Below, one piece after another: positions 6,221 through 22,100 of a stretch of DNA of 27,442 nucleotides; position 1 is the stretch's first letter, and each line of letters starts with the position of its first letter. Source of the DNA: a virus; the IMG/VR virus record IMGVR_UViG_3300032116_001086, positions 1 through 27,442 of that record; one strand, 5' to 3'. The notes beneath the pieces were generated by a model that was not told the DNA's origin, searched no databases, and was given only the letters and a program-made list of their open reading frames with translations. The translations under genes and the position numbers were made by a program.

Positions 6221-7192
6221 ATGGGTCTTTTAGATAAAGTAAAAACTGCACTCGGCGCAGCCGCAAGCGGTATGGCCTCGCCCAGGTCGTCTTCCAGCAA
6301 GAACACAGAAGACGCCTATACTGCTTTAGTGAAAACGTTTTATTCTCCAGACTACACTCAGAACTCTAACTGGCTGAAGTCTACGCCGTACGCGTTCAAG
6401 GCAAAGGTGGACGACGGCCCGTACACGACCTTCTTCCTTCCGATAAGCCCACAAAACTTAACGATATCAACATACTTTGCCACAAACACTATCGCCACGC
6501 TGTACGGTACGGTCGAGGAGCACTCTGAGCAGCGCTACTTCGACATCGCCATACAAGGCACCACAGGCTTCGCTCCTTCGTACTACGACAAGAACCCGTT
6601 GACTCCGTCCGCAGGCCGCGAGTCCTTCAGCTCAAGCGCTTTCATAAAGTCTGACGTCTTGGGCGGATTTGCCTCTGGTCTAATAGGCAAGATCAACAAG
6701 GCCGTAAACCAGGCCACGGCGGTCGTCAACGCGGTAAAAGGAAACAACAAGGGTCCTTTCGAGTCCGGCTTGAGCATAGAGAAAAGCGGGTACGCGGCGT
6801 TCCACAACCTCTACCGGTTCCTGCTGGCGCACAAAAAGTACGCAGCAAGCGGAAAGATGAGATCGCCGTCCGACGAGAAGCTGGACGCGAAGTCCAGCAA
6901 CCAGACGCCGCTGTACTTCATCAACTTCAAGGACAACAACCAGTACTCGTGCGTCGTTCAGAGATTCACGCTCGAGCGAACGGCAGAGAACCCTATGCTC
7001 TACAACTACAGCATACAGCTTAGAGCATACAATCTCAGCCCTATACTGAGCGGCTCTTTTACGGCAAACGACGAAAGACTCAAGATGCTCGGTCTTCAAG
7101 AGTCTGCACCGTCTGCTGCTGCAAGGTTCAGCGACACTGTGAGCAACGCGAAGGGCGCATTAAACACACTCAAAAGCATACGTGGTAGGTGA
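6221..7192 (+). CDS. Baseplate or tail-tube adaptor structural protein
   Basis: The protein has 323 residues. ATG 6221 is preceded by GGGGGTTA at a usable distance and by a 33-base gap after the spike gene. After a Ser/Ala-rich N-terminus, residues 60-115 contain TFFLPISPQNLTIST and LYGTVEEHSEQRYFDIAIQG, a pattern I associate with phage tail proteins that join the tube to the baseplate. A second beta-rich part near residues 245-290 has PLYFINFKDNNQYSCVVQRF and ENPMLYNYSIQLRAYNL. A low-complexity Ala/Val/Asn segment lies between them. It sits between the V-like spike and the W-like gene. I cannot name the family; T4 gp48/gp54-like or Mu gp43-like roles are possible but unproven. Confidence 0.55.
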   Translation: MGLLDKVKTALGAAASGMASPRSSSSKNTEDAYTALVKTFYSPDYTQNSNWLKSTPYAFKAKVDDGPYTTFFLPISPQNLTISTYFATNTIATLYGTVEEHSEQRYFDIAIQGTTGFAPSYYDKNPLTPSAGRESFSSSAFIKSDVLGGFASGLIGKINKAVNQATAVVNAVKGNNKGPFESGLSIEKSGYAAFHNLYRFLLAHKKYAASGKMRSPSDEKLDAKSSNQTPLYFINFKDNNQYSCVVQRFTLERTAENPMLYNYSIQLRAYNLSPILSGSFTANDERLKMLGLQESAPSAAARFSDTVSNAKGALNTLKSIRGR

Positions 7193-8802
7193 TGGACTCA
7201 GTAAAGTCAGCATACGCAGCGCTGTCAGATCTGTCTCTTTGGGCCAAGGTCCAGTCGAGCGATCGACTGAAGCTGTCCGATGTTCCGGCAGTTGCGAACC
7301 TGAGGTTCGACTACATCCTCGTCAACTGGTCGACTATGCGAGAGACAGTCGTCAGCAACGCGTCAGACTACTACGACTTGAAGAAGTTCAATCACGAGCT
7401 TCGCGAGTTTGACAAGTTCATCGACATCATACGAAACCAGACTCCTGCAGTGCGTCAGGCGGCCAACAACAAATCCATGGTCGCAAACTACTACTCTGTG
7501 TTCGATAATATGTACGTCGACGACGTGAACGTCTCCTCAACCGAAGAAGGTGTGGTCCAGTCTGAGATCGACAGGGTCTCGAACTTCAAGAAGAACTCAT
7601 TCTTGAGCATCAGAAAGCTTCTTACAGCAGGAAGGGACGCGATCGCAGACTCCATCGGGGCATCAGACAACACCTACAACTCCATATACGACAGAAGCTC
7701 GCTGCCCAAGCTGCTGGACAGGTCCATACCCGAGCTCGAGAGCTCTTATCTCTTCCAGCAGGGGATAAACGCCGTAGACTCTATCCTGGCAAACGAGACC
7801 ATACTCAACACCACGGCGTACGTAGACCCTTTCGCTTTTGCCAGGGCCAACGCGAACAACCCCGAGATCGACATCGGCACCTACTCGTCAGGATCGCTCG
7901 TCAAACTCAACTACAGAGAAACACTGCAAGGTCTTGCACTTAGGACCATGGGCGACGCCGATCGCTGGATAGACATCGCAATCGCTAACGGACTCAAGCC
8001 TCCGTACGTCGATGAGGTGGGCCAAAAGATCCCGCTGGTGTCGAACGCCAGGAACGACTCCATCAACATCGCTGCCACGGACGCCTTCGCTAGACCCAAC
8101 AAAGAGAAGGTCTACGTCAACCAGATCGTCATCATACAGTCCGACGTCGAGTCGATACCAGACCAGAGGGTAATAACGTCTATAAAAGAGACGCCTATAT
8201 CGGGAGAGCTCACCATACAGCTCAGCGGCGAGGCAGATCTCGACAGATACAAATCGGGAGACAACGCCTACATCAGGGTGTTTGCCCCGAACACCGTCAA
8301 CAGTAATTTCTACGTCCTCATCCCGTCCACCGATCCACTTCCTGCGGGCCTAAACAAGCCGACGCCGTGGTTCCTTCGGAGCAAGAGCCAGGACGAGAAG
8401 AACGCCGGCGTAGACTTCGCGCTAGACAGCATGGGCGACATCGTCCTCGACAACTCGGGCGACCTTAAGCTGTCGTACGGGGCAGACAACGCGACGCAGG
8501 CCCTCAAGATCCTCATAGCGACATCTACCGGAGATCTTTTCAGGCACCCTGACTACGGCATCCCGGAGATAGTGGGGACCCAGAACTCTGACCCAGAGGG
8601 CGTAAGATCCACCATAGCAGAGAACATATCAAGAAAGATAGAGAGCGACCCGCGTTTCAGCAGATTAGACTTCTTAACGGTAGAATATCTAAGCAGCGGA
8701 TCAGCTGGTCCAGCCGGCTATGCAGTGAGTCTGGGCGTGGTTCTAACCGGCAGCTCAGGGAACGTGATCCCCATTTCCTTCAGCATAAACGTACCGCAGT
8801 AA
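7192..8802 (+). CDS. Baseplate wedge protein: LysM/gp53-like segment fused to gp25/gpW-like domain
   Basis: The protein has 536 residues from ATG 7192, which overlaps the previous stop by one base (TGATG); a GTG at 7189 is an alternative. Three parts can be seen. Residues 1-230 are helical and not recognised. Residues about 240-275 read YRETLQGLALRTMGDADRW then IDIAIANGLKPPYV, close to the 'GDTLQ.IA.R.LGDA.RW' pattern of LysM/gp53-like baseplate proteins. Residues about 408-536 look like a gp25/GPW domain: GDIVLDNSGDLKLSYG, LKILIATSTGDLFRHPDYG, and ESDPRFSRL in the place of the family's EPR motif. In T4-type baseplates gp25 helps start sheath assembly. Its position just before the J-like gene matches P2 W-J-I order. 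Confidence 0.75.
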   Translation: MDSVKSAYAALSDLSLWAKVQSSDRLKLSDVPAVANLRFDYILVNWSTMRETVVSNASDYYDLKKFNHELREFDKFIDIIRNQTPAVRQAANNKSMVANYYSVFDNMYVDDVNVSSTEEGVVQSEIDRVSNFKKNSFLSIRKLLTAGRDAIADSIGASDNTYNSIYDRSSLPKLLDRSIPELESSYLFQQGINAVDSILANETILNTTAYVDPFAFARANANNPEIDIGTYSSGSLVKLNYRETLQGLALRTMGDADRWIDIAIANGLKPPYVDEVGQKIPLVSNARNDSINIAATDAFARPNKEKVYVNQIVIIQSDVESIPDQRVITSIKETPISGELTIQLSGEADLDRYKSGDNAYIRVFAPNTVNSNFYVLIPSTDPLPAGLNKPTPWFLRSKSQDEKNAGVDFALDSMGDIVLDNSGDLKLSYGADNATQALKILIATSTGDLFRHPDYGIPEIVGTQNSDPEGVRSTIAENISRKIESDPRFSRLDFLTVEYLSSGSAGPAGYAVSLGVVLTGSSGNVIPISFSINVPQ

Positions 8803-8806: not shown

Positions 8807-8812
8807 CAGGTG

Positions 8813-11800
8813 ATGGCTGTAAGTCTTCAAAGTTACAACGAGATTCTTGGAAAACTGGCTCGCAAGATCATAGCGGACACTCCGGTAAATGATTTGAATC
8901 CTGGCTCGGTGCTGTTGACGCTGCTGGAGGCGGTCGCGGCGCAGGACTTCGAGAACAGTGCCAGCATACTCAACGTCTTAGAGACGCTGAACATCGACGC
9001 GCTCAAGAACTCAGATCTCGACGCCAGAGCCGCAGACTACGGTCTTGCAAGAAAAACCTCAGCCAAAGCAACGGGCTTCATAAAGATTCAAGACTCTAGC
9101 ATCACCAAGCGAGCCACGACGCTGTACGCTGTGAAACCGGCTCCTATAGCGGGCGCCACCAAGATCTACGTCAACGACGCCTCAGGATGGGCATCGACCG
9201 GGACGCTCTTCATAGGCCGCGGAACCCAGCAGTTCGAGGGACCGATCTCGTACACGTCGATCGTGGACAACGGAAGCTTCTACACCATCAACCTGGCGTC
9301 TGCGCTTCAGAAAGACCACCTCACGTCCGACACGGTCATCGACGCGCAGGGCACGATCGACAAGCTCATACCCTCAGGAACGATCGTCAAGATACCGTCC
9401 AACAATGTCACTCCTGAGATCCTCTACACGACGCTCAGAGACGCGATCCTTCCGGCAGGCGAAGACACGGTCGACAGCATACCCATCATAGCGGAAAACT
9501 CAGGCGCTCAGAGCAACGCCGGCATAAACTCGATCACGACGTTCGATTCTTTGCCGTTCGCTACGGCTCTGGTCTCTAACACCTCGGTCCTCGCAAGCGG
9601 TCGAGACACTGAGTCAGACGACGACCTTCGCGAGAGGCTCAAGAACTACTCGGCTACTTTGTCTAGAGGAACTCGCGCCGCGATACTGTCTGCCATCGTC
9701 GGAGTGTCCGACTCCTCGGACGGCAAGCAGGTCTCGTCTGCCGTTATCCAGGAGCCGACCACGTACGGCGAGCCTTCGCTCGTCTACATCGACGACGGCT
9801 CTGGTTTTCAGCCTACGACCGCCGGTCAGTCGGTGGACGTTCTTCTGGCATCGGCAAGCGGCGGCGAGCAGTATCTCCAGCTCTCAAACTTCCCGCTTCC
9901 TAGGCCTCAGATCTCTAACCAGATCCCTGGACCGATAGAGCTCGTGGCAGGATCTAGGCTCGTGGTCGCCGTGGACGAGGTCGAGCAAGAGATCATCGTC
10001 TACTCTCGCGACTACGTCAACATCGCGTCGGCTACGCTGATCGAGATCGCGATCGCCATAAACGCTCAGGCAAACGACAATGGCTACAACTTCAGATGTA
10101 GGCTGTCTGAAGACTCTACGCGACTTCTCATATACCCTACAGACTTCAGCGCAGAGTTCATACAGGTCTCATCCACGCTTCCGAGCGGAGTGACAAACGC
10201 GAACGACGCGCTGAAGTTTCCGACCAACAAATACTCGTACATCTCTCTCTACAAGAACAACGTCTTGCTCAGGTCTAAAGAGACCGCAGCCACGCTGGTC
10301 ACACTCGCTGCTCCTTGGCCGTCGCTGATCTCCAGCGGCACACTGGTCATATCGGTCGACGGAACGCCGTCTCAGACCGGATACTTCACCAGCGGCGACT
10401 TTGGCGGCATACCGATATCTGCTGTGACGCCTCTTCAGTGGGCTGATGCCATAAACGCCAAGTTCGCCGGAATCACCGCGACCGCCACGTCGAACGCCAA
10501 GATACAGATCAGATCAAACAAGACCGGATCGAGCTCTTCGCTCAAGATCGTCGGCGGAACCTACATCGACGACTGGTTCTCTGGGATCAGCACGTACGAC
10601 GAAGGCACCTCGTCTGACTTCAGCCTAAACCGACAGACAGGGAACCTGAAGCTCGAGGTTCCTGCCGTAGCCGGAGACTCTATCACTGCAGGCAACGCAG
10701 ACGCCAAAGGCTACATCACCTCCACGCCGACCAACATCGGCACATACGACCTAAGCGCCGACTCAAGCGGACGGCCTTCTGAGATGGTCGTCGTGGCTGA
10801 CGGGTTGAACGTAGAGCCAAGAGGCGACGTCTCTCCTGCCATCGGAAGCGGCATCAAGGTCACCGTACCTAGTGCCGGATACATGAGATTCACGGCAGAC
10901 ACCAGCAACACATTCCAAGGAGCTTTGGTCGGCGATTACATCTACGTCTCCTATAAATCGCTGACGGCAGACTGGTTTAGTCTAAACAACTCAGGTCTAT
11001 TCAGGATCGTCAAGAAGGGCTCGCACGTTTCTGCTGGCGTAGACACGTACGTGGACGTGGTCAACGTCGGGGCAAGCGCTGAGCCTGTGTCCGACTACTA
11101 CGACGTCACGTTCGAGGATGACGTTCAGGTCTTCGGCTCGGACGCCTATCCTCAGGTCTGGAGAGCAGAGTACGTCTCCAACACCGTGCCGATCACCCTT
11201 CAGCAGATGGTGACGTCGTTCGACAACGACCTCGCAAACGTCAAGGGCTCGATCTTCAAGACCAACTCCATAAAAGCGACCAGCACCACCGAGAACGACG
11301 GCGCCATAGCGATTCCTGTGTCGGTCGGAAAACTATCATTCATCTTCGACACCAAGCAGGGTTCAGAGCTCGGCAATCAGTCGCACGTCGCTAGCCGCAT
11401 AAGCTCGGCCGATATGCTGACGTGGTTCAAGCGCGGCGCCTACGTCAAGAGGACCTCATCCAACACAGTGCTCCTAGACAGGACCAGATACACCGACGTC
11501 AAGGGAACCATATCGGCAGACGCGGCGTACACGTCGTCCACCTTGAACTCGGCGCTCTTCAACACATCAGACCTTGCGTACGACGATATCGTCAACGTCA
11601 CCTCGGGCGCGAACAAATCCCTCTTCAAGAACGCGGTCGAGATCCAGGGCGGGAACGTTTTGTCGATACGAAGCGTCACGCCGAAGACGTCTTTCGATTA
11701 TCTCTCAGGCGACTCTATTGAGCTCGTTAAGTCGCTGTCGTTCTCGTCCGACGACTCGATCGTCTTCGTGCTCGACGGCGACGCCGTAAACAAGACCATC

Positions 11801-14800
11801 AACGTCAACTTCTGGCGAACCGGTCGAGTCAACTCGCAGATCGCGCCGACCAACAGTCAGTTCTCAGCTACTGACGCAGACAACGAGGCAGGCATCACCT
11901 TCGCAACGCCTACGGTGTGGTCGACGTCCGCTCCTACGAGCACGAACTTCGAAGACTACGCGGTGTGGTTCAGGAGCCGTAACTGGTATCGGTCCGGCGG
12001 ATCGGCGTCAAGCGAAGGGACCTTGATCCTCAGGGCAAAAGAGTACGGGCCGATCGGCGACAGTCATCGGTTCTCCATAGACTATCCGTCTGCGCCGCTG
12101 CAGAGTGCGCGCATAGAGCACGCGAACAACCCAGAGTACACGACCACCACCTACTACTTTGGATCAGACGACGCAAGGACCACCGGCATCATCGGTGGGT
12201 CCACTTTCTCGGTAAGAAAGATCGAGACCATCGCGACCACAGCACAAGGCGCAGGATCCGGTGAGGTCTCGAGCGGCGATTACTTTTACCTCTACGAAGC
12301 CTCTAACAAAGCCGTGGTCTTCTGGTACGCGGTCAACGGGTCTGGATCTCAGCCTACGGTCACCATCTCAGGCGTCACCGTAAGGTACGTGAAGATCGGC
12401 ACCGTGGTCACAGGCGACACTGCTACGGCGGTTGCGGCTAAGACCGCTTTCGCAGTCGACAACGACGACAGCTTCACTGCGACCGCGTCAGGGAACGTCG
12501 TGTCGGTCACGAACAATTTCAACGGATCCGTTCCTGCTGCGGCACAGTCTGGCATAAGCTTCGTGATCAACCAAGACACGAAGACATGCCGATACCAGTT
12601 TCAGACCGTCGTAGACCTCAGCACCGTGGTGGTCGGCGACGTGATGTCTGTTGCTGAGTCTATAGGCATCTCTTCTGGAAACGACGGCACGTTCAGGGTA
12701 AACGCTGTCGATCCGGCTCTTCAGTACGTGGACGTCTACAACCCGTCCGCGTCTCCTACGACGGTCGGTCAGGTCGATAAAGTGTCGGTCAGCAGCGTTG
12801 CTGCGGCAGGGTCTAACATGGCCCAGAACGTGACCGTCACGGCAGGATCCGGTATCACCACAGGCGGATACTTTATCCTCTACGATCAGACCGGTGCGGT
12901 GGTCTTCTGGTACGACCTCACAGGGTCCACTCCTCAGCCTTCGGTGTCTGGCGCGGTAAGATACGTCCAGATCTCCGGCCTGACGTCGGGCAGCACCGCT
13001 GCAGCAGTAGCAGCTGCGACCAGCACGGCTGTCAACGGCGATCCTCAGTTCAGCACCGTCTACTCGTCAGGCAGCACGTTCTCTGCTGTAAACGCTTTCG
13101 TGGGTCCGGTTCAGGACGCGGCCAACGGTACCGGCGTAGCGTTCACGTACGCTAAGACAGACTCCGGCGATCCTATCGGCGGCACCTACTTTAAGCTGTA
13201 CGACTCTGCCGGAAGCGTGGGCGTATGGCTGAACGTAAACGGAAACCCGATGCCTCCGCACGGGTGCGACAGAGCGATTCAAGTCATATTGAATCCGACT
13301 GATTCTGCTAACGACGTCGCAAGCACGATCGCAGCATATGTAGACGCCGACGCTGAGTTTACAGCAACCTCAAGCACGACTACGGTGCTGATATCGAACT
13401 ACTACAACGGTGCACGCGACGCCGCAGTGGACGGATCTTCTCCGTACGCTACAGGCTTCACTATCGCAGTAACTCAGCCGGGGACAAACGACGCCTACGA
13501 TGCACCGGCGTCGAACTCGGGCATAGTGATGTATCCGCTGCTGTCCACTGCGGTCAGCGACATCTGCAACGTCGTCAACACCAGCGAGACCATGACCGCG
13601 GCGTTTGTGGGCTTAGGCACCAACATCATAGCAAAGGCGACCAAGGAAGAGCTGCTTGCCGTATCCTACGCACACAACCCGTCTCCGTCGTCTAACTTGA
13701 ACGAGTTCGTGAAGATGTTCGACGGCGAGTCGTTCGTCAAGATCTTCGCAAACACGAACCCGCAGTTCATACTCAAGCAGAGCCTGATACTTCAGGGACT
13801 TGAGCCAACGATCTACGACATGGCGTCGTGCCCAAATCCTGGGACCGCCGACGTAGGCGAGATCTTCAAGCTCGTGCCCAAGACTATAAAGAACGTCAAG
13901 CACCAGCTGACGCACAAAGCACTGTCTCAGCTCCCCATCGTGGCAGACGTAGACATCGCCGGCAACTTCAGGCGCGTGCAGGTCAAATCCAAGAAGCTTG
14001 GAACTGCGGGCGGCGTAGAGATCGTCGGCGGTCGCGCGAACGTAGCAGAGCTGGACCTGATAGGGTCCGCAAGCACCGAGCTGAACGACGCGGCAACAGT
14101 GCGATACCTGAGAGCAGCGGTTCAGGCTTTTCCCAACACGCTCAGCAAGGGTGACGCAGTAAAGATCTACAACACTCTGCCTGCTAAGCGATACTTCGCT
14201 CCTGACTCAGGAACAAAGGTAGAGGTCTACAACGACTCTTTCGGCAACGTCAGTTACCTTATAGGGAACCGATCGATCAACTCGTCGCCGTTCACCACGT
14301 GGAGCCTGTCTGATGTCTCTAGCAGCTACGGTGCCGCTTCCGGCACGATCTGGAGATGGACGCACACTCAGTCTGGCGCTAAGGCAACGGCGGTAGGAAA
14401 GACACCTTTCGTGAACTTCAACTCCATAGCGCGCGTAGGCGGCGTAGCAACCGTCACTACGTCTGCTTCGCACGGCTTCGTGGCCGGACAGAAGATCGTG
14501 ATCTCGGGTGTGGCGGACGTTCCGGCTTTCAACGGCGAGTGGGTCATCACCGCGACACCGCTGACCAACACGTTCGAGTTTGCGTCTACGGGATCGAATC
14601 TCGTCAGCAACTCTGGTGGCAAGGCGACGATCGTCGCCACGCAGACCACGCTGCCAGACACCTACGACAGCTCCAGCATCTCGATATCGTCTAGGCTTCG
14701 CTCGTATGACTTCGTCGTAGGAACGACGTCTGTCGCGTACAACGTGGCGCTTACCGTAGACTCGCTTCCGAACCAGGGCGATTTCTTCCTGGTTCGCGCG

Positions 14801-16879
14801 CCTCAGACCTACTCGACGATCTCTCCTTTCGGACCAGTCACGGCGGCAACGTACGCGGTCTGGTTTGCGGTCGACGGCGACAGCACCGCACCAACCGGAA
14901 CAGCATACTCGACCTCGACACACAAGATCAAGGTCGACATCCTCAGCACAGACACGGTAAACGACGTCGTGTCTAAGATGTCGATCGCTCTGGCGGCCAA
15001 CAGCAACTTCGTCGCTTTCATGACGTCGACCGTGACACCGGGAACAAACCTAGCGTCAGTTCAGCCTGGGGACATAGTGAACGTCTGGCCTAAGGCAGGC
15101 GACACCTACCTTGCGGCAAACTGGCTTATGGGCAACCAGTCTCAGGCCACTGGGTCTCTCGCTGCTTCGGGCTTTCCGGTCCTTGCGGTGAACGCGACCA
15201 GCAGGTACATGGACGTCATCAACCCCAACGGTCGGGCGATGTCGAACAAGTTCACCGGAGCCACCGGACAGCTCGACGTTGCGCCTGCCATATTCACAAG
15301 GTTCAGGGTCAAGCACGCGGCTCTTCGTGCGGTGACTATCGTAGTTGCCGCCGGAACCGCCACAGCAACGCTCACTGCTCCTCACGGCTTCAGCGTAGGC
15401 GACAGCGTAGCGATCAGCGACACGTCTGCGCTCGACGGAAACGTTACCGTAGTGTCTACGTCTAGTCCTTATGTCTTCACCTTCAGCACAGGCGCGTCTG
15501 CGGGCACTTACTCAGGAAACTGTCTGCTTGCGAGCTCTAGCGTGACGCGGTATCGCATCAGTAGCCTCGGCTTCAAGAACCTCTTCAGGATCGAGCGCAC
15601 TCAAGGCAACAGCCCTAGGTTCGCGGACTGCGGTGCGTGCGTGGACGACTTCGTCGAGATCTCTGGCAGCACCTTCAAGGCAGACAACCGCGGACGATTC
15701 CGCATACGCGCGGTCGAGAACGACTCGATCATCGTTGAAAACGAAGGCGGCAAGGAAGAGCTCAACACGTACAAGCTCCTAAACTACACAGACAAGACCG
15801 CAACCTGGGTCACCGGCTCCAGCACGGTCACCGGTGTTGCAGGCGCCTTCAGCAACGTCTCGGTAGGGTCATGGGTCAAAGGAATCGACGAAGACGACAC
15901 AGCTTTTGCTCAGGTCGTTTCGCTGTCGCCCTCGACTCCGTCGCTTGCGACCACGATGATACTGGGTCAAAACTACAGAGGCGTCTCGGGTGCGAGCCAG
16001 GGTGTAACGACCAACTTCGAGACAGACGTAGATCAGGGCACCGAGCTCTTGAGCGTCGACGATCTCAGGATCGTGGAGTGTGACTCTACTGTAGTTGGCG
16101 ATAGGCTCATAGTCGACTCCATAACCAACACCAGCTGGTTCAGCCAGCTTAACTCAGGCAACAGACCTACCACCGACTGGGGCAGCGATCCAGAAGATCG
16201 TCGCCAGTACGTGACGGTCACGAACGTCAGCGGGATATCGCAGCAGGACGTGGCGCTGTCTGTGAGTCTTACAGGCCTCTATCTCCTTGAGGCAGAGACC
16301 GCACTGTACGACACTATGCGCGTGGTCGAGAACACGGCGATCAGTCGCTTCAACTCGGACCAGCGTCTAGTGTACATGACGGCAGACGACCGTGTCTACA
16401 AGATGTCTGTCGACTACGGCACCAGGATCATGTCTATGGGCAAGATGAGCTTCCCTACGGCCATCGCAACCGGCGTAGACGGCTACTCGTACTACACAGG
16501 CCTTATGCGAACCGTCCAGAGGATCATCGACGGCTACGAGCCAGACATCGAGACTTACCCAGGTCGAAGGGCCGTTGGATCGAACATCGAGTCGCTGCCG
16601 CCGCTCATCAAGCAGATCAGCATGACACTGAGGATCGCAACCGGAGACGGCGTAAACCTCAACGACATCACCAACGACATCAAGTCTACCGTTATCGGCT
16701 ACATCTCATCCTTGGGCGTAGGCGAGGACGTGGTTCTGTCGGAGATCATAAGAAGGGTAAAAGACATCACCGGCGTAGACGCGGTGACGTTCACGACTCC
16801 TTCGCCGACGCTCGAGCGGATCGCGGTTTACGACAACGAGAAAGCGCTGACAGCACCAGATCTCATCAGCTTGTCGTGA
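8813..16879 (+). CDS. Giant baseplate J-like wedge protein (gpJ/gp6-like) with about 2,000-residue insert
   Basis: The protein has 2,688 residues from ATG 8813. The N-terminal 330 residues fit baseplate J proteins: LNPGSVLLTLLEAVAAQDFE, a membrane-free alpha/beta core, IPIIAENSGAQSNAGI, then ESDDDLRERLKNYSATLSRG and TRAAILSAIVGVSD. The C-terminal 200 residues also fit: YYTGLMRTVQRIIDGYEPD, ESLPPLIKQISMTLRIATGD, YISSLGVGEDVVLSEIIRRV, ITGVDAVTFTTPSPTLERIA. Members are usually a few hundred residues. Here the two ends are separated by roughly 2,000 residues rich in Ser, Thr, Gly, Val and Asp, with four related copies of a 100-residue module and two FCCH-like beta modules. The reading frame is intact throughout. 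J proteins form the wedge ring that opens on contraction; the insert probably projects outward. No enzyme motif was recognised in it. Confidence 0.8.
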   Translation: MAVSLQSYNEILGKLARKIIADTPVNDLNPGSVLLTLLEAVAAQDFENSASILNVLETLNIDALKNSDLDARAADYGLARKTSAKATGFIKIQDSSITKRATTLYAVKPAPIAGATKIYVNDASGWASTGTLFIGRGTQQFEGPISYTSIVDNGSFYTINLASALQKDHLTSDTVIDAQGTIDKLIPSGTIVKIPSNNVTPEILYTTLRDAILPAGEDTVDSIPIIAENSGAQSNAGINSITTFDSLPFATALVSNTSVLASGRDTESDDDLRERLKNYSATLSRGTRAAILSAIVGVSDSSDGKQVSSAVIQEPTTYGEPSLVYIDDGSGFQPTTAGQSVDVLLASASGGEQYLQLSNFPLPRPQISNQIPGPIELVAGSRLVVAVDEVEQEIIVYSRDYVNIASATLIEIAIAINAQANDNGYNFRCRLSEDSTRLLIYPTDFSAEFIQVSSTLPSGVTNANDALKFPTNKYSYISLYKNNVLLRSKETAATLVTLAAPWPSLISSGTLVISVDGTPSQTGYFTSGDFGGIPISAVTPLQWADAINAKFAGITATATSNAKIQIRSNKTGSSSSLKIVGGTYIDDWFSGISTYDEGTSSDFSLNRQTGNLKLEVPAVAGDSITAGNADAKGYITSTPTNIGTYDLSADSSGRPSEMVVVADGLNVEPRGDVSPAIGSGIKVTVPSAGYMRFTADTSNTFQGALVGDYIYVSYKSLTADWFSLNNSGLFRIVKKGSHVSAGVDTYVDVVNVGASAEPVSDYYDVTFEDDVQVFGSDAYPQVWRAEYVSNTVPITLQQMVTSFDNDLANVKGSIFKTNSIKATSTTENDGAIAIPVSVGKLSFIFDTKQGSELGNQSHVASRISSADMLTWFKRGAYVKRTSSNTVLLDRTRYTDVKGTISADAAYTSSTLNSALFNTSDLAYDDIVNVTSGANKSLFKNAVEIQGGNVLSIRSVTPKTSFDYLSGDSIELVKSLSFSSDDSIVFVLDGDAVNKTINVNFWRTGRVNSQIAPTNSQFSATDADNEAGITFATPTVWSTSAPTSTNFEDYAVWFRSRNWYRSGGSASSEGTLILRAKEYGPIGDSHRFSIDYPSAPLQSARIEHANNPEYTTTTYYFGSDDARTTGIIGGSTFSVRKIETIATTAQGAGSGEVSSGDYFYLYEASNKAVVFWYAVNGSGSQPTVTISGVTVRYVKIGTVVTGDTATAVAAKTAFAVDNDDSFTATASGNVVSVTNNFNGSVPAAAQSGISFVINQDTKTCRYQFQTVVDLSTVVVGDVMSVAESIGISSGNDGTFRVNAVDPALQYVDVYNPSASPTTVGQVDKVSVSSVAAAGSNMAQNVTVTAGSGITTGGYFILYDQTGAVVFWYDLTGSTPQPSVSGAVRYVQISGLTSGSTAAAVAAATSTAVNGDPQFSTVYSSGSTFSAVNAFVGPVQDAANGTGVAFTYAKTDSGDPIGGTYFKLYDSAGSVGVWLNVNGNPMPPHGCDRAIQVILNPTDSANDVASTIAAYVDADAEFTATSSTTTVLISNYYNGARDAAVDGSSPYATGFTIAVTQPGTNDAYDAPASNSGIVMYPLLSTAVSDICNVVNTSETMTAAFVGLGTNIIAKATKEELLAVSYAHNPSPSSNLNEFVKMFDGESFVKIFANTNPQFILKQSLILQGLEPTIYDMASCPNPGTADVGEIFKLVPKTIKNVKHQLTHKALSQLPIVADVDIAGNFRRVQVKSKKLGTAGGVEIVGGRANVAELDLIGSASTELNDAATVRYLRAAVQAFPNTLSKGDAVKIYNTLPAKRYFAPDSGTKVEVYNDSFGNVSYLIGNRSINSSPFTTWSLSDVSSSYGAASGTIWRWTHTQSGAKATAVGKTPFVNFNSIARVGGVATVTTSASHGFVAGQKIVISGVADVPAFNGEWVITATPLTNTFEFASTGSNLVSNSGGKATIVATQTTLPDTYDSSSISISSRLRSYDFVVGTTSVAYNVALTVDSLPNQGDFFLVRAPQTYSTISPFGPVTAATYAVWFAVDGDSTAPTGTAYSTSTHKIKVDILSTDTVNDVVSKMSIALAANSNFVAFMTSTVTPGTNLASVQPGDIVNVWPKAGDTYLAANWLMGNQSQATGSLAASGFPVLAVNATSRYMDVINPNGRAMSNKFTGATGQLDVAPAIFTRFRVKHAALRAVTIVVAAGTATATLTAPHGFSVGDSVAISDTSALDGNVTVVSTSSPYVFTFSTGASAGTYSGNCLLASSSVTRYRISSLGFKNLFRIERTQGNSPRFADCGACVDDFVEISGSTFKADNRGRFRIRAVENDSIIVENEGGKEELNTYKLLNYTDKTATWVTGSSTVTGVAGAFSNVSVGSWVKGIDEDDTAFAQVVSLSPSTPSLATTMILGQNYRGVSGASQGVTTNFETDVDQGTELLSVDDLRIVECDSTVVGDRLIVDSITNTSWFSQLNSGNRPTTDWGSDPEDRRQYVTVTNVSGISQQDVALSVSLTGLYLLEAETALYDTMRVVENTAISRFNSDQRLVYMTADDRVYKMSVDYGTRIMSMGKMSFPTAIATGVDGYSYYTGLMRTVQRIIDGYEPDIETYPGRRAVGSNIESLPPLIKQISMTLRIATGDGVNLNDITNDIKSTVIGYISSLGVGEDVVLSEIIRRVKDITGVDAVTFTTPSPTLERIAVYDNEKALTAPDLISLS
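12254..12573 (+). repeat. Module A, copy 1, inside the J-like protein
   Basis: About 107 residues (around residues 1148-1254 of the J-like protein). It has the pattern SGDYFYLYE, AVVFWYAVNG, VRYVKIG, TAVAAKTAFAVDNDDSFTAT and NNFNGSVPAAAQSG. It shares order and spacing with the copies starting at 12842, 13160 and 14756. The function of the module is unknown; it is probably a beta-rich surface domain. Confidence 0.75.
12842..13156 (+). repeat. Module A, copy 2, inside the J-like protein
   Basis: About 105 residues with the pattern TTGGYFILYD, AVVFWYDLTGSTPQP, AVRYVQISG, TAAAVAAATSTAVNGDPQF and VGPVQDAANGTGVAF. It is the copy closest to copy 1; both have the FWY motif and the alanine-rich helix that follows. 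Confidence 0.75.
13160..13483 (+). repeat. Module A, copy 3, inside the J-like protein
   Basis: About 108 residues starting three bases after copy 2. The pattern is GGTYFKLYDSAGSVGVWLNVNG, with PPHGCDRAIQVIL in place of the RYVKI strand, then DVASTIAAYVDADAEFTAT and NYYNGARDAAVDG. It is more diverged than copies 1 and 2 but keeps the same element order. Confidence 0.7.
14429..14640 (+). repeat. FCCH-like beta module B, copy in J-like protein
   Basis: About 70 residues with the pattern ARVGGVATVTTSASHGFVAG, QKIVISGV, AFNGEWVITATPLTNTFEF. The 'HGF..G..V.ISG....NG.w.I......nTF.F' order matches a small module that phage annotations often label FCCH-like. A second copy follows at about 15329-15535, with APHGFSVGDSVAISD and LDGNVTVVSTSSPYVFTF. 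Related copies lie in the gpI-like and first fibre genes. Confidence 0.6.
14756..15064 (+). repeat. Module A, copy 4 (diverged), inside the J-like protein
   Basis: About 103 residues with the pattern NQGDFFLVRAP, TYAVWFAVDGDSTAPTGT, HKIKVDILSTDTVNDVVSKM and SIALAANSNFVAF. It has the same order of strand, VWF/FWY-type strand, IKV strand and helix as copies 1-3. It lacks the final NxxNG segment and is separated from copy 3 by about 1.3 kb. Confidence 0.55.
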
Positions 16880-16887
16880 GGTGAAAC

Positions 16888-19038
16888 ATGGCAAACAAGC
16901 TTACAGCAGTAGACGGCATACACGATCAGCTGAACCCGTACTTCAACACGAGAGCCAACCCTAACTGGAAGGCTATAGTGGAGGCCATAGGCGAGTCCGA
17001 CCAGGACATCGCCGACCTCGTTCAAGAAGTGCGCAAACAGTTCTTCATCACTAGTGCATACAGGCCATACCTTGACCGCCTGGCCGCGAACTACAAGGTC
17101 TCAAGACCTAAGGTAGTAGGCATGGACGACCCCACGCTGCGCAAGTACATACCGATACTCGCGTATCAGCCTAAGCAGGTCAAGAACATAGTCGACCAGC
17201 TCTTGGACATCTTCTTCTTCAAGGAATCAACGACCGCATTTACCCAGTCGAGCATCTACGGTCCGTTCCTGATGAAGGACGGCTGGGAGCTTCAGTATCT
17301 GGTAGACGGTGTCAACGAGGAGAAGATCATCTTCTCTGCCTTGGACTTCGAGGATCCGCTTAACGCGACCGCAGCCGAGATCGTGGCCGCCGTGAACCGT
17401 CAGGCCAAGTTCAGCTTCGGCATCGTTTTCGAGGACAAGATCTCGAGACGCGACTACGTGAGGATCTTCACCAGCACCATCGGCTCCAAAGGCTCTATAG
17501 AGATCCAGGGCGGTCGTGCCGACATCTCGCTGAAGTTTCCGGGCATCGTCGACGGAACCGGCTCAGGCAGCGACACGATCTGGACCATAACCAAGATCGG
17601 TGACACGGTAAGGTTCACCCACACCGGCGGAACAGGACCAAACATCTTCCTCATAAACGTAGGCGACAACGTCGTGGTCGATATGCCGGGAAACAGCGGC
17701 ACGTTCGCCGTCACCGCGGTAAACATAACCGAGTCGTACTTCGAGTTTCAGAACCTCCTCGCGACCCCTGGCGTCTTCAACCATGCCACGAACCCCGGCT
17801 TCTACGTAAGGTTCGTGAGACCAGAGCGGTCGGTCGTCTACACTCGCGACAACAGGTCCGTGGTATGGGAGGTCAAGCCCGGCGAGATCGTCATCGAGAT
17901 GCCGGCGACTCCTCCGGTGGTGCGGCGCAAGCTCAAGGGATCCGCCCACCTCAACGGTCCCATAAGCATCATGCTCGACAGAAACTCTGACACCTCGATG
18001 ACGGTCGACGAGCGGGCAGAAGACTGGCCGTCGGCCGGTCAGTTCGTGATACAGTCGCTGGACCAGGTCAAGAGTCGGATCATCACGCCGACCACGGACG
18101 AGGTCACGACGCTCAACATCGACACAGGCTTCGACATCAAAGAGAACCGCTTCTCGTATTCTTCCAAGACCGCTGTCACGGGCGGATACCTGCTGTCTGG
18201 GATATCGCCGGCTCTGCCGGTTGCCGCAGGCGTTCAAGAACTGATCGTCTCGTCTGCTCAGTCAGACAGCAGCGGCGTACTGACGGTCACCACGACCACA
18301 CCTCACCTCATAGAGGCAGACGGCTCGGTCAAGATCTACGACGTGCCCGCTCCTGGACTCTCGCTCAACGGCATCTTCGAGCTCATAGACGTCGTGAGCG
18401 CGAACACCTTCAGGTGTCAGTCGAGCAGCGGCGCGACACCGGTCGTAAGTTCTGGCAAGGTCCGCATCGAGCGCATCGGTCTCGCAGACGCCGGATCTCC
18501 CGTGTATCTGACGTCGTCCATAGCAAACTCAGGGATCTTCGGCCCTTATATGTACGACACGGCGGCACCTTTCATAGTGTCTTCGTACGTCGGCGTCACC
18601 GCACAGGAGATAGACGCAGGCAACATCGTATTGAACCTTGCGATAGACACTCCGAACAACGTGCCGAACGAGCAGGGTTTTCTGATATTCGACTACGGTC
18701 TCAACACGCAGGAAGGACCCGTTCGATACCTCTACAAAGCCTCAGAGGGAAACATCGCGCTTGATCCGGCTTATGTCTTCAAGTACAACCACTCTGTTGG
18801 GTCGACTGTGACAGCCATACGCCGCAAAGGTGCCTATGTTATGAGCGGCTTAGGTAAAGAGTATGCATTCTACATCTCTGATCCAGCTAAGGCAAGACAG
18901 ATCCTTCAAGATCTCATCAACCAGGTCAAGAGCGTAGGTCTCTTCCTAGAGTACGTGGTGCGGTACCCGACGCTCTACTACTCTGAGTTCGACGTGTACT
19001 CAGAGACCAGCGAGAACGACGATCTCCTTGGCTTATGA
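16888..19038 (+). CDS. Baseplate wedge protein, gpI-like (P2 gpI / Mu gp48 type)
   Basis: The protein has 716 residues from ATG 16888. GAGGTGA (16878-16884) overlaps the J-like stop and is a strong Shine-Dalgarno sequence. Residues 1-110 match the tail-protein I pattern: NPYFNTRANPNWKAIVEAIG, ITSAYRPYLDRLAANYKVSR and DDPTLRKYIPILAYQPKQV. The usual protein is about 200 residues. The extra 500 residues are beta-rich and include two FCCH-like modules (about 17565-17815 and 18280-18475; for example TTTPHLIEADGSVKIYDVP, LNGIFELIDVVSANTF). The C-terminus (ARQILQDLINQVKSVGLFLE) is helical and acidic. In P2 gpI joins gpJ to the fibre gpH, which fits its place between the J-like gene and the first fibre. 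Confidence 0.7.
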   Translation: MANKLTAVDGIHDQLNPYFNTRANPNWKAIVEAIGESDQDIADLVQEVRKQFFITSAYRPYLDRLAANYKVSRPKVVGMDDPTLRKYIPILAYQPKQVKNIVDQLLDIFFFKESTTAFTQSSIYGPFLMKDGWELQYLVDGVNEEKIIFSALDFEDPLNATAAEIVAAVNRQAKFSFGIVFEDKISRRDYVRIFTSTIGSKGSIEIQGGRADISLKFPGIVDGTGSGSDTIWTITKIGDTVRFTHTGGTGPNIFLINVGDNVVVDMPGNSGTFAVTAVNITESYFEFQNLLATPGVFNHATNPGFYVRFVRPERSVVYTRDNRSVVWEVKPGEIVIEMPATPPVVRRKLKGSAHLNGPISIMLDRNSDTSMTVDERAEDWPSAGQFVIQSLDQVKSRIITPTTDEVTTLNIDTGFDIKENRFSYSSKTAVTGGYLLSGISPALPVAAGVQELIVSSAQSDSSGVLTVTTTTPHLIEADGSVKIYDVPAPGLSLNGIFELIDVVSANTFRCQSSSGATPVVSSGKVRIERIGLADAGSPVYLTSSIANSGIFGPYMYDTAAPFIVSSYVGVTAQEIDAGNIVLNLAIDTPNNVPNEQGFLIFDYGLNTQEGPVRYLYKASEGNIALDPAYVFKYNHSVGSTVTAIRRKGAYVMSGLGKEYAFYISDPAKARQILQDLINQVKSVGLFLEYVVRYPTLYYSEFDVYSETSENDDLLGL

Positions 19039-19134
19039 GACTGGCGTTAAATGCTGTATAATTTAACAGTTGCCTATGGAAGCAAGCATGACAGCTTTAG
19101 ACTTAAAATATTCTAAGATTCTCGGGAGTTGGGT
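19039..19134 (+). promoter_or_regulatory. Intergenic region with candidate promoter (-10 at 19057-19062) and inverted repeat
   Basis: This 96-base gap contains a perfect TATAAT at 19057-19062 preceded by TG. I see no good -35 at 16-18 bases. GTTAAAT (19046-19052) is the exact reverse complement of ATTTAAC (19061-19067), so an inverted repeat with an eight-base centre brackets and overlaps the -10. Downstream there is an AT-rich leader of about 65 bases ending in GGGAG. The region could be a promoter with an operator, or a phage-specific late promoter. There is no T-run to make it a terminator. Confidence 0.4.
19124..19128 (+). promoter_or_regulatory. Ribosome binding site that sets the fibre start at ATG 19135
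   Basis: GGGAG lies six bases before ATG 19135. The in-frame TTG at 19129 would leave no space after it, so the ATG is the better start. Confidence 0.6.
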
Positions 19135-22100
19135 ATGTCCGTACTAGGCCGTTTGCTCGTAGGTTCGCAGCAGCGCGTTGATCTCGCGGACTTTTTGTCG
19201 ATACAATCTTACGTAGCGTCAGACTTCAAGGAGCTTGTGCGAAGCTTCGTTGGCAGCAGACCGGTCATCCTCAAGGGCTTCGAGGTCATCGATGCCCCGA
19301 ACTCCATAGGCACAAACAGCATCTCGATAAGAGTAGCAGACTCTGTACTTTACGATCCTACAGCCGCTGCTGGAAGCTTCTTCTCCGGCCTTCCAGAAGG
19401 TAACGCGCTGTCTCAGCCGCTGGTCTTGGGCCAGGAACTGAGACCGGGTGCGGTCAACTACATCTACCTTACGCTCAGCACCGTGGGTGCGGCACAGGAC
19501 ACCAGGGCTTTCTGGGACGTGGATCTAAACGGCGGCGAAGGTGGCGAGTTCAACCAGACCATCAACACCGAGGCCGTTCTCATAGTGCAAGCCGGTGTAT
19601 CGACCGCAGGCTTCCCGCAGGGCACGATCCCTGTAGCCAAAGTCAACTACAGCACCTCTATCACAGAGATCACCGACTGCAGGAACCTGATGTATCGACT
19701 TGGGACCGGCGGAACGTCTCCGGATCCAAACGCGCGCTTCCAGTTTCCTCCTCTGCCGTCTGCTCCGTATGCTCGAAGCGAGCCGCCGTCGACCATCAAC
19801 AGCGCCGCTCTTCCGTCTCCTTTCTTTGGCGGCGACAAGAACATCGAGACGCTGAAGGACTGGATGGACGCGGTCATGACGAAGCTCGTCGAGCTCTCCG
19901 GTACTACGTACTGGTACGAGAGCACAGGCGACCTCAGTCTCGTGAACGTGTTCGACGATGCCCTTGCTTCTAGCCTGAAGTCAAAAGGAAAGTGGCAGCA
20001 CAGCGAGACCACGATCGGTCAGGTTACGTGGACCGAAGACATCCAGTATCGCAAGATCAACGATCCCCGCGACATCATCATCCGAGCTGGAACCAAGACC
20101 CTGCTAAACGAGCAGATCATGTGGGTCCAGATGGTGCGCAACCAGAAGATCAACCCGCTGGACACGCCGGTCACGTTCATCACCGGTGCCGCGTACGTCA
20201 ACGGTGCAGCAGGATCTTTCTCCTCGCTCGCCAAAGGTGACTGGATCAAGCAGAAGGGCGACGACGAGTATCTCTACGCAAGGGTCGTCGGCTTCTACAA
20301 CGCACTGAACGGATCGGGCAGCGAGACTACGGCAAGTGCTGCTTTGTCGGTGAAGCTCGAGGACGTCTACGGCGGGGTCGGCGGTCTCACTAATGCCGTG
20401 TACACTAAAGGCGTGTACGAGAACTCAGACGTTCAGATCACGGACCGCGACGACTTCACCGCGTACAACGCAGGCGGTAACCTATACTGGCTCGCCAGCA
20501 GATCCGACACCATCCAGAAGGTCGGCGGCATCGTCGTAGAAGATCGCACGAGCACGACGATCGACAGTGCAGACGGCAAGAGCGCCAAGATCACTTTCGC
20601 AGCAGCGCATAACCTGGTCGAGGGCGATCGGGTAGTCGTAAGCAACGGAACCGCCTTTGACGGAACATACATCGTAGAGATCGTCAGCTCAACTGAGGTC
20701 ACGATACAGACCACCGCGACAGGATCTACGTCGTCAGCGACTGTCGGCTGGGCGGTCGTAACCAGCGCGGCAAGACCTGCAAACAACAGCTCAAGCTTCA
20801 TAGTAGAGTCAGCGAACCACGGTTTCGCAACCGGTCAGAAAGTAGTGATCGCAGGTGTCACGCCTACGGTTCCAGACATCAACGGCAGCTATCTTGTAAA
20901 CGTCAGAAACCTGACGCAGTTCCAGATTCCCTACGGCGGCGGAGCACTGTCGCCTACGCTGTCTGCTGCGACAGTGACATGCGCCAAAGTAATCTTAAAG
21001 ACAGAGCTTGGCGCGGTAGAGGTCGTTCAAGGCGAGACGATCGACATCAACGAGCCAGACACGAAGAATCTCCTCAGCTTCATCGGCATGGGCTCTTTGG
21101 CAGAAACTAATCCAGTATACGTCGTGCCAGAGGCAACGAACAACATGCTGGACGGCTACTCTAACTACAACAGCGTCAGCACCGACAGCTTGACGACCAG
21201 AGTCTCAAGACTCACGGCAATGATGGCCGATCGAGTCCAGGACCGTGGACTCCGTATCCTGGGTCGCATGACTTTCAGGAACGAGGGATCTGGGTCTGAT
21301 CAGATCGTGACACTAAGCGGCGACACGCTGGTCGTCATGAAGCCTGGTTCTGCCAGCCAGTCGATAACCGCAGCCGGAACATACACACTAGTGGCAAACA
21401 CTGCCGTGGTAGTGGACATAGACCGCAACGGATCTGCAGCGGTAGTACCGAGCGTAGTCGGGTTCGACGCAAACTTCCTTCTGCAAGAGAACCGCATCGT
21501 TCTCTTCTATAGGATGAGCGGGACTGAGATCTACTCGTGGGACGGAAGCAAGATCCTCAACTCTACCTCGTGGACGTCGAACGAGTACGAGACCAGCCAG
21601 AATCGCAACGTCACGGTATTTGAAGCAGTCGGTACTCGGTACGACGGAACCGACCTCTACTTCCTAGACTCAGTAGGCTACGTCTACATCAAGATCCCGG
21701 GCAGCACGAACGACAACCGCATAGATGTGTCGAACTTCACCAGCGGTATCACCGTAGCCGACGACTACTCGGTATGGGTGAGGATCAATCGCCGAGCCTT
21801 GAAGACGTTCACGAACCTTCAGACATCAGCCACGTATCAGGACAGCGATGCTGCTGGTGCTTTGTACGTGACGACATCGGCGTCGGTTCCTACCGACCAA
21901 GACGTAGTGGTCCTATACTCGGTCCAGGGCGGGATGATGATCCGCCACCACATGGCAGATCTTGCTCGACAGACCGTGTACGAAGAGTACTACGTGGTGT
22001 CCGGCAACCACTCCTCTCCGTACACCATACAGCTTCCGCTTGACTCTCGCAACGGCAGCGTGCAAGCCTACTACATCACAGGATCTGGCCAACTTGAAGT

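Follow-up and report, generated by a model that had tools for sequence, protein, structure and literature searches.

Wedge proteins of the gp6/J type with massive extensions are already described in contractile injection systems. According to the cited portions of the structural reports, domain IV of Alg11 in AlgoCIS (residues 278-643) carries two carbohydrate-binding modules with a proposed role in sensing a second receptor; six Alg11 copies enclose the spike, and opening of this cage once the fibres have bound was proposed to be the second step, dependent on a receptor, in which the ring expands (PMC8894135, PMC13314943). Cis11 of tCIS has three extra domains, and the extensions of Cis11 and Cis12 are described as contacting a fibre-like protein or the membrane (PMC8894136). 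In the available account of phage XM1, gp16 has a helical core bundle interrupted by a wing (87-178), and a domain III (192-404), where neighbouring wedges pair (PMC10457771). In Pseudomonas phage K8, one substitution is reported to turn a protein likened to gp6 into a receptor binder (PMC9887876). Ordinary phage J proteins range from 348 aa (phi812 ORF62) through 404 (XM1 gp16) and 494 (PhiTE) to 495 (phi92 gp145). Here we analysed a virus contig whose J-type protein is several times larger. Our literature search recognised no study on a J-type wedge of such size or on this protein in the clade.

A giant J-type wedge gene in one open frame

The window (the whole stretch of 27,442 nt analysed, IMG/VR record IMGVR_UViG_3300032116_001086) encodes on the plus strand a giant baseplate J/gp6-like wedge protein of 2,688 aa and 283.7 kDa (8813-16879). 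The single open frame (8810/8813-16879) is unbroken throughout, as the first-pass annotation had stated for these 8 kb. The probable start is the ATG at 8813, with GAGGCAGGTG lying 5' of it; residues are numbered here from the GTG at 8810. Pfam scans of the window protein and its relatives gave no intein and no protease or cleavage family, no enzyme domain was found by Pfam in the insert of the window protein, and phmmer found no match to the whole protein among PDB sequences at E 1.

The first-pass annotation had read both ends as J/gp6-type, a reading borne out at either end by the Pfam profile and by predicted fold. The whole protein scores 47.2 bits against Pfam Baseplate_J (PF04865, cut-off 21.1), and phrog_6 (baseplate wedge subunit) matches at 3.5e-24. 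In the J-family profile search that had been proposed as a check, residues 180-287 correspond to Pfam positions 30-132, and window positions 16502-16750 (about residues 2565-2647), in the same frame, correspond to positions 179-253, with 17.1 bits for this C half alone, which is under the cut-off. Given the gap at Pfam J 132-179, the short stretch between the halves of a normal J is replaced here by about 2,200 residues.

AlphaFold2 models were obtained for residues 1-1139 (mean pLDDT 73.7, pTM 0.36) and 1490-2689 (mean pLDDT 78.9, pTM 0.62), and the fold matches below cover these two, each searched as a whole model rather than domain by domain; the domain arrangement in the first is not to be relied on because of its pTM. 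The N-terminal half (residues 2-335; 8813-9814, plus strand) comprises a helical core-bundle segment, the wing and the following helices. Residues 2-336 superpose on phiCD508 gp65 (9gb2_A; Z 14.9, rmsd 14.5, 227 aligned) and residues 64-282 on chain 9gtp_2G of a Streptomyces CIS (Z 13.7, rmsd 2.9, 132 aligned). In the structure searches the N-end model finds the J proteins of phi812 (Foldseek, 9euf_C, E 3.3e-9), phiCD508, cyanophage A-1(L) and Mu. Within the wing lies a small beta domain (residues 100-180; 9107-9349, plus strand) resembling T5 Dit pb9 and K1 capsule lyase domains (7w1d_H, Z 10.4, rmsd 2.0, 75 aligned; pb9, 6f2m_B, Z 7.7, rmsd 2.3, 72 aligned). The C-terminal half (residues 2546-2689; 16445-16876, plus strand) contains the J C-terminal domain at 2598-2689, which superposes on residues 257-346 of phi812 J (9euf_I; Z 10.8, rmsd 1.8, 87 aligned) and aligns to residues 307-400 of the 404-residue chain 7kh1_A5 from the XM1 baseplate, which we take to be gp16. 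From these matches we infer that the insert would sit inside the counterpart of XM1 gp16 domain III, the two halves coming from separate models. The ordinary phage J proteins match the N body and/or the C-terminal domain by profile or fold, and they have only short segments in place of the ∼2,210 residues.

Modules of the central insert

The insert spans residues 336-2545 as delimited by the Pfam J gap (9815-16444, plus strand), ∼2,210 residues of about 233 kDa. An insert of ∼2,000 residues at about 400-2450 had been predicted; the insert stands, with its bounds moved outward, and its description as a long chain of beta modules agrees with the HMM searches, the two AlphaFold2 models and hhalign. 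All modules given below are on the plus strand. The chain begins with a flagellin outer-domain-like module at residues 364-477 (9899-10240; 9n8g_A, Z 9.9, rmsd 2.6, 95 aligned), followed by a module at 490-602 (10277-10615) that is FliD-like or sheath-like by fold: it superposes on 7kh1_A6, which has 497 residues in the XM1 baseplate entry and is presumably the sheath protein (Z 11.3, rmsd 2.3, 104 aligned), and on FliD (6kty; Z 9.6, rmsd 2.7, 101 aligned).

Three kinds of module recur in the insert: four GDYF beads, two FCCH/endosialidase-barrel modules and probably five modules of a third type. HMM searches place the beads at residues 1149-1242 (12254-12535), 1345-1435 (12842-13114), 1451-1537 (13160-13420) and 1984-2085 (14759-15064); family comparison indicates that the first is an extra copy that most relatives lack. 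Copies of the third type lie at 720-800 (probable; 10967-11209), 1257-1345 (12578-12844), 2095-2175 (15092-15334), 2248-2365 (15551-15904) and 2440-2545 (probable; 16127-16444). By hhalign the second copy pairs with the fourth at 96% over 56 columns and with the third at 95% over 28 columns; the first and fifth copies pair with each other at 91% and with the second at 87% each, and the fifth pairs with the fourth at 68%. Since no pair exceeds 96%, over 28-56 columns, and several are much lower, the count of five is probable, not certain.

The first FCCH/endosialidase-barrel-like module (residues 1872-1933, or 1866-1944 in the model; 14423-14608) was recognised by HMM and fold, and the second, FCCH-like (2176-2234; 15335-15511), by HMM and hhalign. 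The endosialidase barrel binds polysialic acid. The first module superposes on the FCCH domain of E1 (Z 10.3, rmsd 2.0, 78 aligned) and on the endosialidase barrels of phi92 (Z 9.8, rmsd 1.9, 77 aligned) and K1F (Z 9.3, rmsd 2.1, 77 aligned); because the eukaryotic E1 enzymes match as well as the endosialidases, this fold by itself is no sign of sugar binding. Pfam End_beta_barrel was found in 2 of 42 family members.

The GDYF profile matches the tail sheath proteins of phages 7-7-1 (6.3e-4), Milano (0.0028) and PhiTE (0.013), weakly and over ∼46-55 residues, and the matches that follow are at chance level (0.48 for a capsid protein, 1.5 for an uncharacterised protein). The matched Milano residues 116-168 fall within what the cited text calls the external sheath extension domain, 91-203 (PMC10811340). 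PHROG searches of GDYF members gave scattered single matches, one of them to tail sheath at 0.0017, and a tblastn search of 50,697 phage records with a 200-aa two-bead stretch gave none at E 0.1. These similarities weakly suggest that the beads may be related to the outer domains of tail sheaths.

Family members and module turnover

Members were sought in viral contigs, genome contigs and phage records with the family's own N and C profiles, a search that shorter J proteins would not enter. At least 51 distinct members, the window's own included (as L003), combine the two J halves with a long insert in a single frame; 80 of 130 loci were taken in, so 51 is a lower bound. The 47 complete members are 1,925-2,946 aa long (median 2,478), one further member of 3,881 aa spans two overlapping loci, and the remaining three are without 5' ends. 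A comparison of J-like gene length among relatives had been suggested, and it gives a similar giant length across the virus clade, within which the length of the window protein is normal. In 594 bacterial genomes, no J frame outside the family exceeds 1,480 aa: the class sample (295 genomes) contained 25 J matches (longest 1,480 aa, median 1,160), and the phylum sample (299 genomes) contained 77 (longest 1,299 aa, median 383), with frames counted stop to stop and the family members of two seed genomes (2,365 and 2,949 aa) excluded from the maximum.

The sole isolated phage with a long match is Myxococcus phage Mx1, whose J (WNM70274.1 in OR576727.2) is likewise a single frame, of 1,925 aa, in which a long insert separates the two J halves. 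It is about 760 aa shorter than the window protein, with which it shares 31.5% identity over residues 7-713 and 29.0% over 2404-2667. By HMM it carries two FCCH modules but lacks GDYF beads. For the other 28 phage records the match covers 65-155 residues; the J of HRTV-25, about 408 aa long, matches over about 116 residues only. Three MAG contigs with the family gene are labelled Mariprofundaceae, Cyclobacteriaceae and Cytophagales, labels that may reflect binning and not the host. In a 165.8-kb record (L050), J is split from 9971-12541 on into frames of 857 and 3,026 aa. Its relative L051/L117 has the single 3,881-aa frame, and both a sequencing error in L050 and a real break are possible.

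The length of residues 1-1139 is almost fixed in the family (1,103-1,179 in 41 of 43 rows, with L060 and L140 longer), and residues 1546-1860 have high occupancy (47 rows). Variation occurs at about six sites (near 750, 1140-1257, 1345-1450, 1627, 1838-2100 and 2145-2250), at which whole modules are gained or lost among members. GDYF beads number 0-9 per protein and FCCH modules 0-2; by HMM, beads are absent from Mx1, L058 and L060, and FCCH modules from the latter two as well. Beta-propellers are inserted in 3 of the 51 members, at three different sites: a Kelch propeller near residue 750 in L060 (7.6e-21), an FG-GAP propeller of nine matched stretches near 2030 in L051 (7.2e-103), and a weak one near 1443 in L089, below the Pfam cut-offs. 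No propeller was seen in the other 48 (six insert stretches scanned individually, propeller families in three). In Mx1 (L024) the gene next after the giant J, at 20769-23717, is annotated as a kelch-repeat protein, the fold that L060 has inside J. Structure alignments included 42 of the 51 members (all but 4 near-duplicates, the 3 members cut short at their 5' ends, L051 and Mx1), occupancy was computed on 47 rows and fragment lengths on 43.

Conservation and selection

Mean pairwise identity (47 of 51 rows) is 0.61 and 0.58 in the J halves, 0.36 in the two most variable stretches and 0.42-0.49 in the rest; conservation is thus lower in the insert modules than in the J core. L006/L007 is the only well-placed pair of eight for estimating omega, the other seven being almost saturated at synonymous sites or having few changes. 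In this pair omega is 0.04 and 0.09 in the J halves, 0.18 and 0.12 in the bead stretches and 0.05-0.06 elsewhere; the whole gene is under purifying selection, with the beads evolving faster. Where readable, the other seven pairs gave omega of 0 to 0.30, except in L015/L016, where one part, with 5 differences, gave 0.44. The low omega throughout is unlike an arms race and does not favour an arms-race adhesin along the whole length. The near-constant length of residues 1-1139 suits a rigid scaffold better than an adhesin that varies.

Neighbouring genes and tail type

The gene order is tube initiator-like, gp25-like, J, gp7-like and fibre-like, so that J is flanked by gp25-like and gp7/gpI-like genes as in the J/gp6 wedge family. 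The gp25-like (sheath-initiator-type) gene at 7189-8802 (plus strand; phrog_975, 1.5e-18 at residues 413-499) has its gp25 domain confined to about 407-499, preceded by an N-terminal extension of roughly 400 aa without a Pfam match at E 0.1, and by virtue of this extension it is a second enlarged baseplate part. Downstream of J, the gene at 16888-19038 (plus strand; phrog_1160, 3.5e-7) encodes the probable third wedge protein, with an FCCH module at 459-516 (E 2.6e-7); the name gp7/gpI rests on the phrog_1160 label, baseplate protein, and on gene position. The next gene (19129-23781, plus strand) encodes a fibre-like protein with shaft repeats (Av_adeno_fibre, 1.8e-20) and two FCCH modules (E 2.9e-6 and 1.7e-5). 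Within it, positions 22716-23021 hold a tandem repeat of 36 aa (108 bp) in 2.8 copies, and the repeats score as avian adenovirus fibre. Among the frames directly downstream of J in the family (46 of 50 examined), an FCCH module was found in 43 of 46 and a GDYF bead in 5 of 46.

A separate J of normal size elsewhere in the genome was considered and rejected: outside the giant gene, no second J was found at E ≤ 0.001 in the complete Mx1 genome and 10 virus records (fragments or of uncertain completeness), and none even at E ≤ 0.1 in the 169,621 bp of Mx1. One record (G004) has a weak J match elsewhere (E 0.024), in G002 the gene lies in two frames, and G606 has the C half only.

The tail is most likely contractile, because a sheath gene (phrog_279, 3e-23) lies upstream in a relative and its homologue is found about 11 kb upstream of J on the record whose J is 99.96% identical to that of the window. 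A long contractile tail is also described for Mx1 in the portion of the report cited (PMC10720576). In L147, the record behind L036, the clade's sheath-like frame is about 740 aa long, and the phrog_279 sheath match does not cover its first 300 residues. Of 10 records compared with Pfam sheath, 4 matched weakly and below the cut-off; phrog_279 firmed up one of them. Terminase, searched for as a clade marker, gave one weak match in nine records, none above the cut-off.

Possible roles of the insert

The first-pass annotation knew of no described function for such an insert. Precedents do exist in the spike cage formed by the extensions of Alg11 and Cis11, as far as the cited portions of those reports describe it (PMC8894135, PMC8894136, PMC13314943), and a J wedge with an extension is therefore already known; what is new is the size, the module set, the swapping of propellers and, apparently, the site. 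We favour a gp6/J wedge with a loop of ∼2,210 residues of surface-type beta modules serving as a docking and sensing surface, a reading to which we give a probability of about 0.5. That the insert is an exposed modular extension is very probable; adsorption or receptor contact by the insert is an even bet, and its coupling to firing, suggested by analogy, is doubtful. The loop of modules would have arisen by growth of the segment that joins the J body (core bundle and wing) to the small J domain at the C terminus. Judging from the fold, the gene order and the lack of another J, the two halves probably still close the wedge and the baseplate ring, and the loop would leave and re-enter the ring, giving the tail tip a large outer skirt or set of arms. 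With two copies per wedge as in the XM1 (gp16)2-gp17 unit, 12 copies would add about 2.8 MDa. Because modules come, go or are exchanged at about six sites, the most likely role is that of a modular surface for docking and sensing. By analogy with AlgoCIS, the skirt may contact a second receptor, probably a glycan, after the fibres have attached. Such contact could contribute to ring opening and to the triggering of contraction, since the insert appears to be built into the domain where neighbouring wedges pair.

Adsorption had been named first among the possible roles, and it agrees with the propellers in 3 of 51 members (one below the cut-offs), with a barrel module that also occurs in the fibre-like gene and with beads that are weakly sheath-like. 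The insert need not bind a receptor, because a separate fibre-like gene is present. As a rigid outer belt, the insert would hold the long fibres in dock and reinforce the baseplate with no host contact of its own; this would fit the separate fibre-like gene that follows, the nearly constant residues 1-1139, the high occupancy of 1546-1860 and the moderate conservation, and the Cis11 and Cis12 extensions offer, in the text cited, a comparable contact (PMC8894136). Gain and loss of whole modules together with inserted beta-propellers would be unusual for a pure fibre dock, however, and we regard this structural role as rather unlikely.

Inserts that close round the central spike, mainly to protect it, and open when the tail fires would place the protein with the AlgoCIS and tCIS cages (PMC8894135, PMC8894136, PMC13314943 in the portions cited), since Alg11 and Cis11 are likewise gp6/J-like wedges with a massive extension. 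The chains concerned, 7aeb_G (Alg11, 1,011 residues) and 7b5h_AH (1,227 residues), come from contractile injection systems, not phages, and the window's insert of about 2,210 residues is some six times as long as Alg11 domain IV. The Alg11 extension, at the tip of domain III, seems to lie within the wing-matching region (Alg11 154-811 aligns on model residues 83-267, a coarse range that is not residue-level), whereas the window protein breaks after the wing, at Pfam J 132-179; in the class sample, 20 of the 22 J frames that measure 1,022-1,480 aa have a single match spanning 132-179, where the family breaks. The Alg11 extension has carbohydrate-binding modules; the window's barrel module is equally like the endosialidase barrel and E1 FCCH. 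The insertion site appears to differ from that of Alg11, for which reason we do not call the insert a spike cage, a role we consider improbable. An assembly chimera, fused genes, an intein or a decaying gene, to which the two J frames of L050 might point, is scarcely credible: chance or misassembly is excluded by 51 distinct single-frame members with both halves, from many metagenomes and including the isolated phage Mx1, together with omega of 0.04-0.18 in every part of L006/L007, and no intein or protease family was found by Pfam.

The docking and sensing surface allows a bolder version, which we put forward only tentatively: in this widespread and little-studied clade of contractile phages, the wedge protein itself would be a host-recognition organ, a megadalton-scale skirt with ports that swap sugar-binding barrels and propellers and a second receptor check wired to the contraction ring. 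If true, host recognition would shift partly from the fibres into the contraction ring, and the natural insertion ports, some with whole propellers, could be used to study baseplate signalling in laboratory phages. Mx1 grows on Myxococcus xanthus, which brings a structure within reach. Even in the dull reading, a J-family wedge is extended to 2.7-3.9 thousand residues, far past the J frames sampled, and at least one giant metagenomic UniProt entry named Baseplate protein J-like is accounted for: A0A6J5KUV1 (BFVD; uncultured Caudovirales phage; the name is the entry label only) matches the 1490-2689 model over its whole length at 34% identity (E 0.0, TM 0.57).
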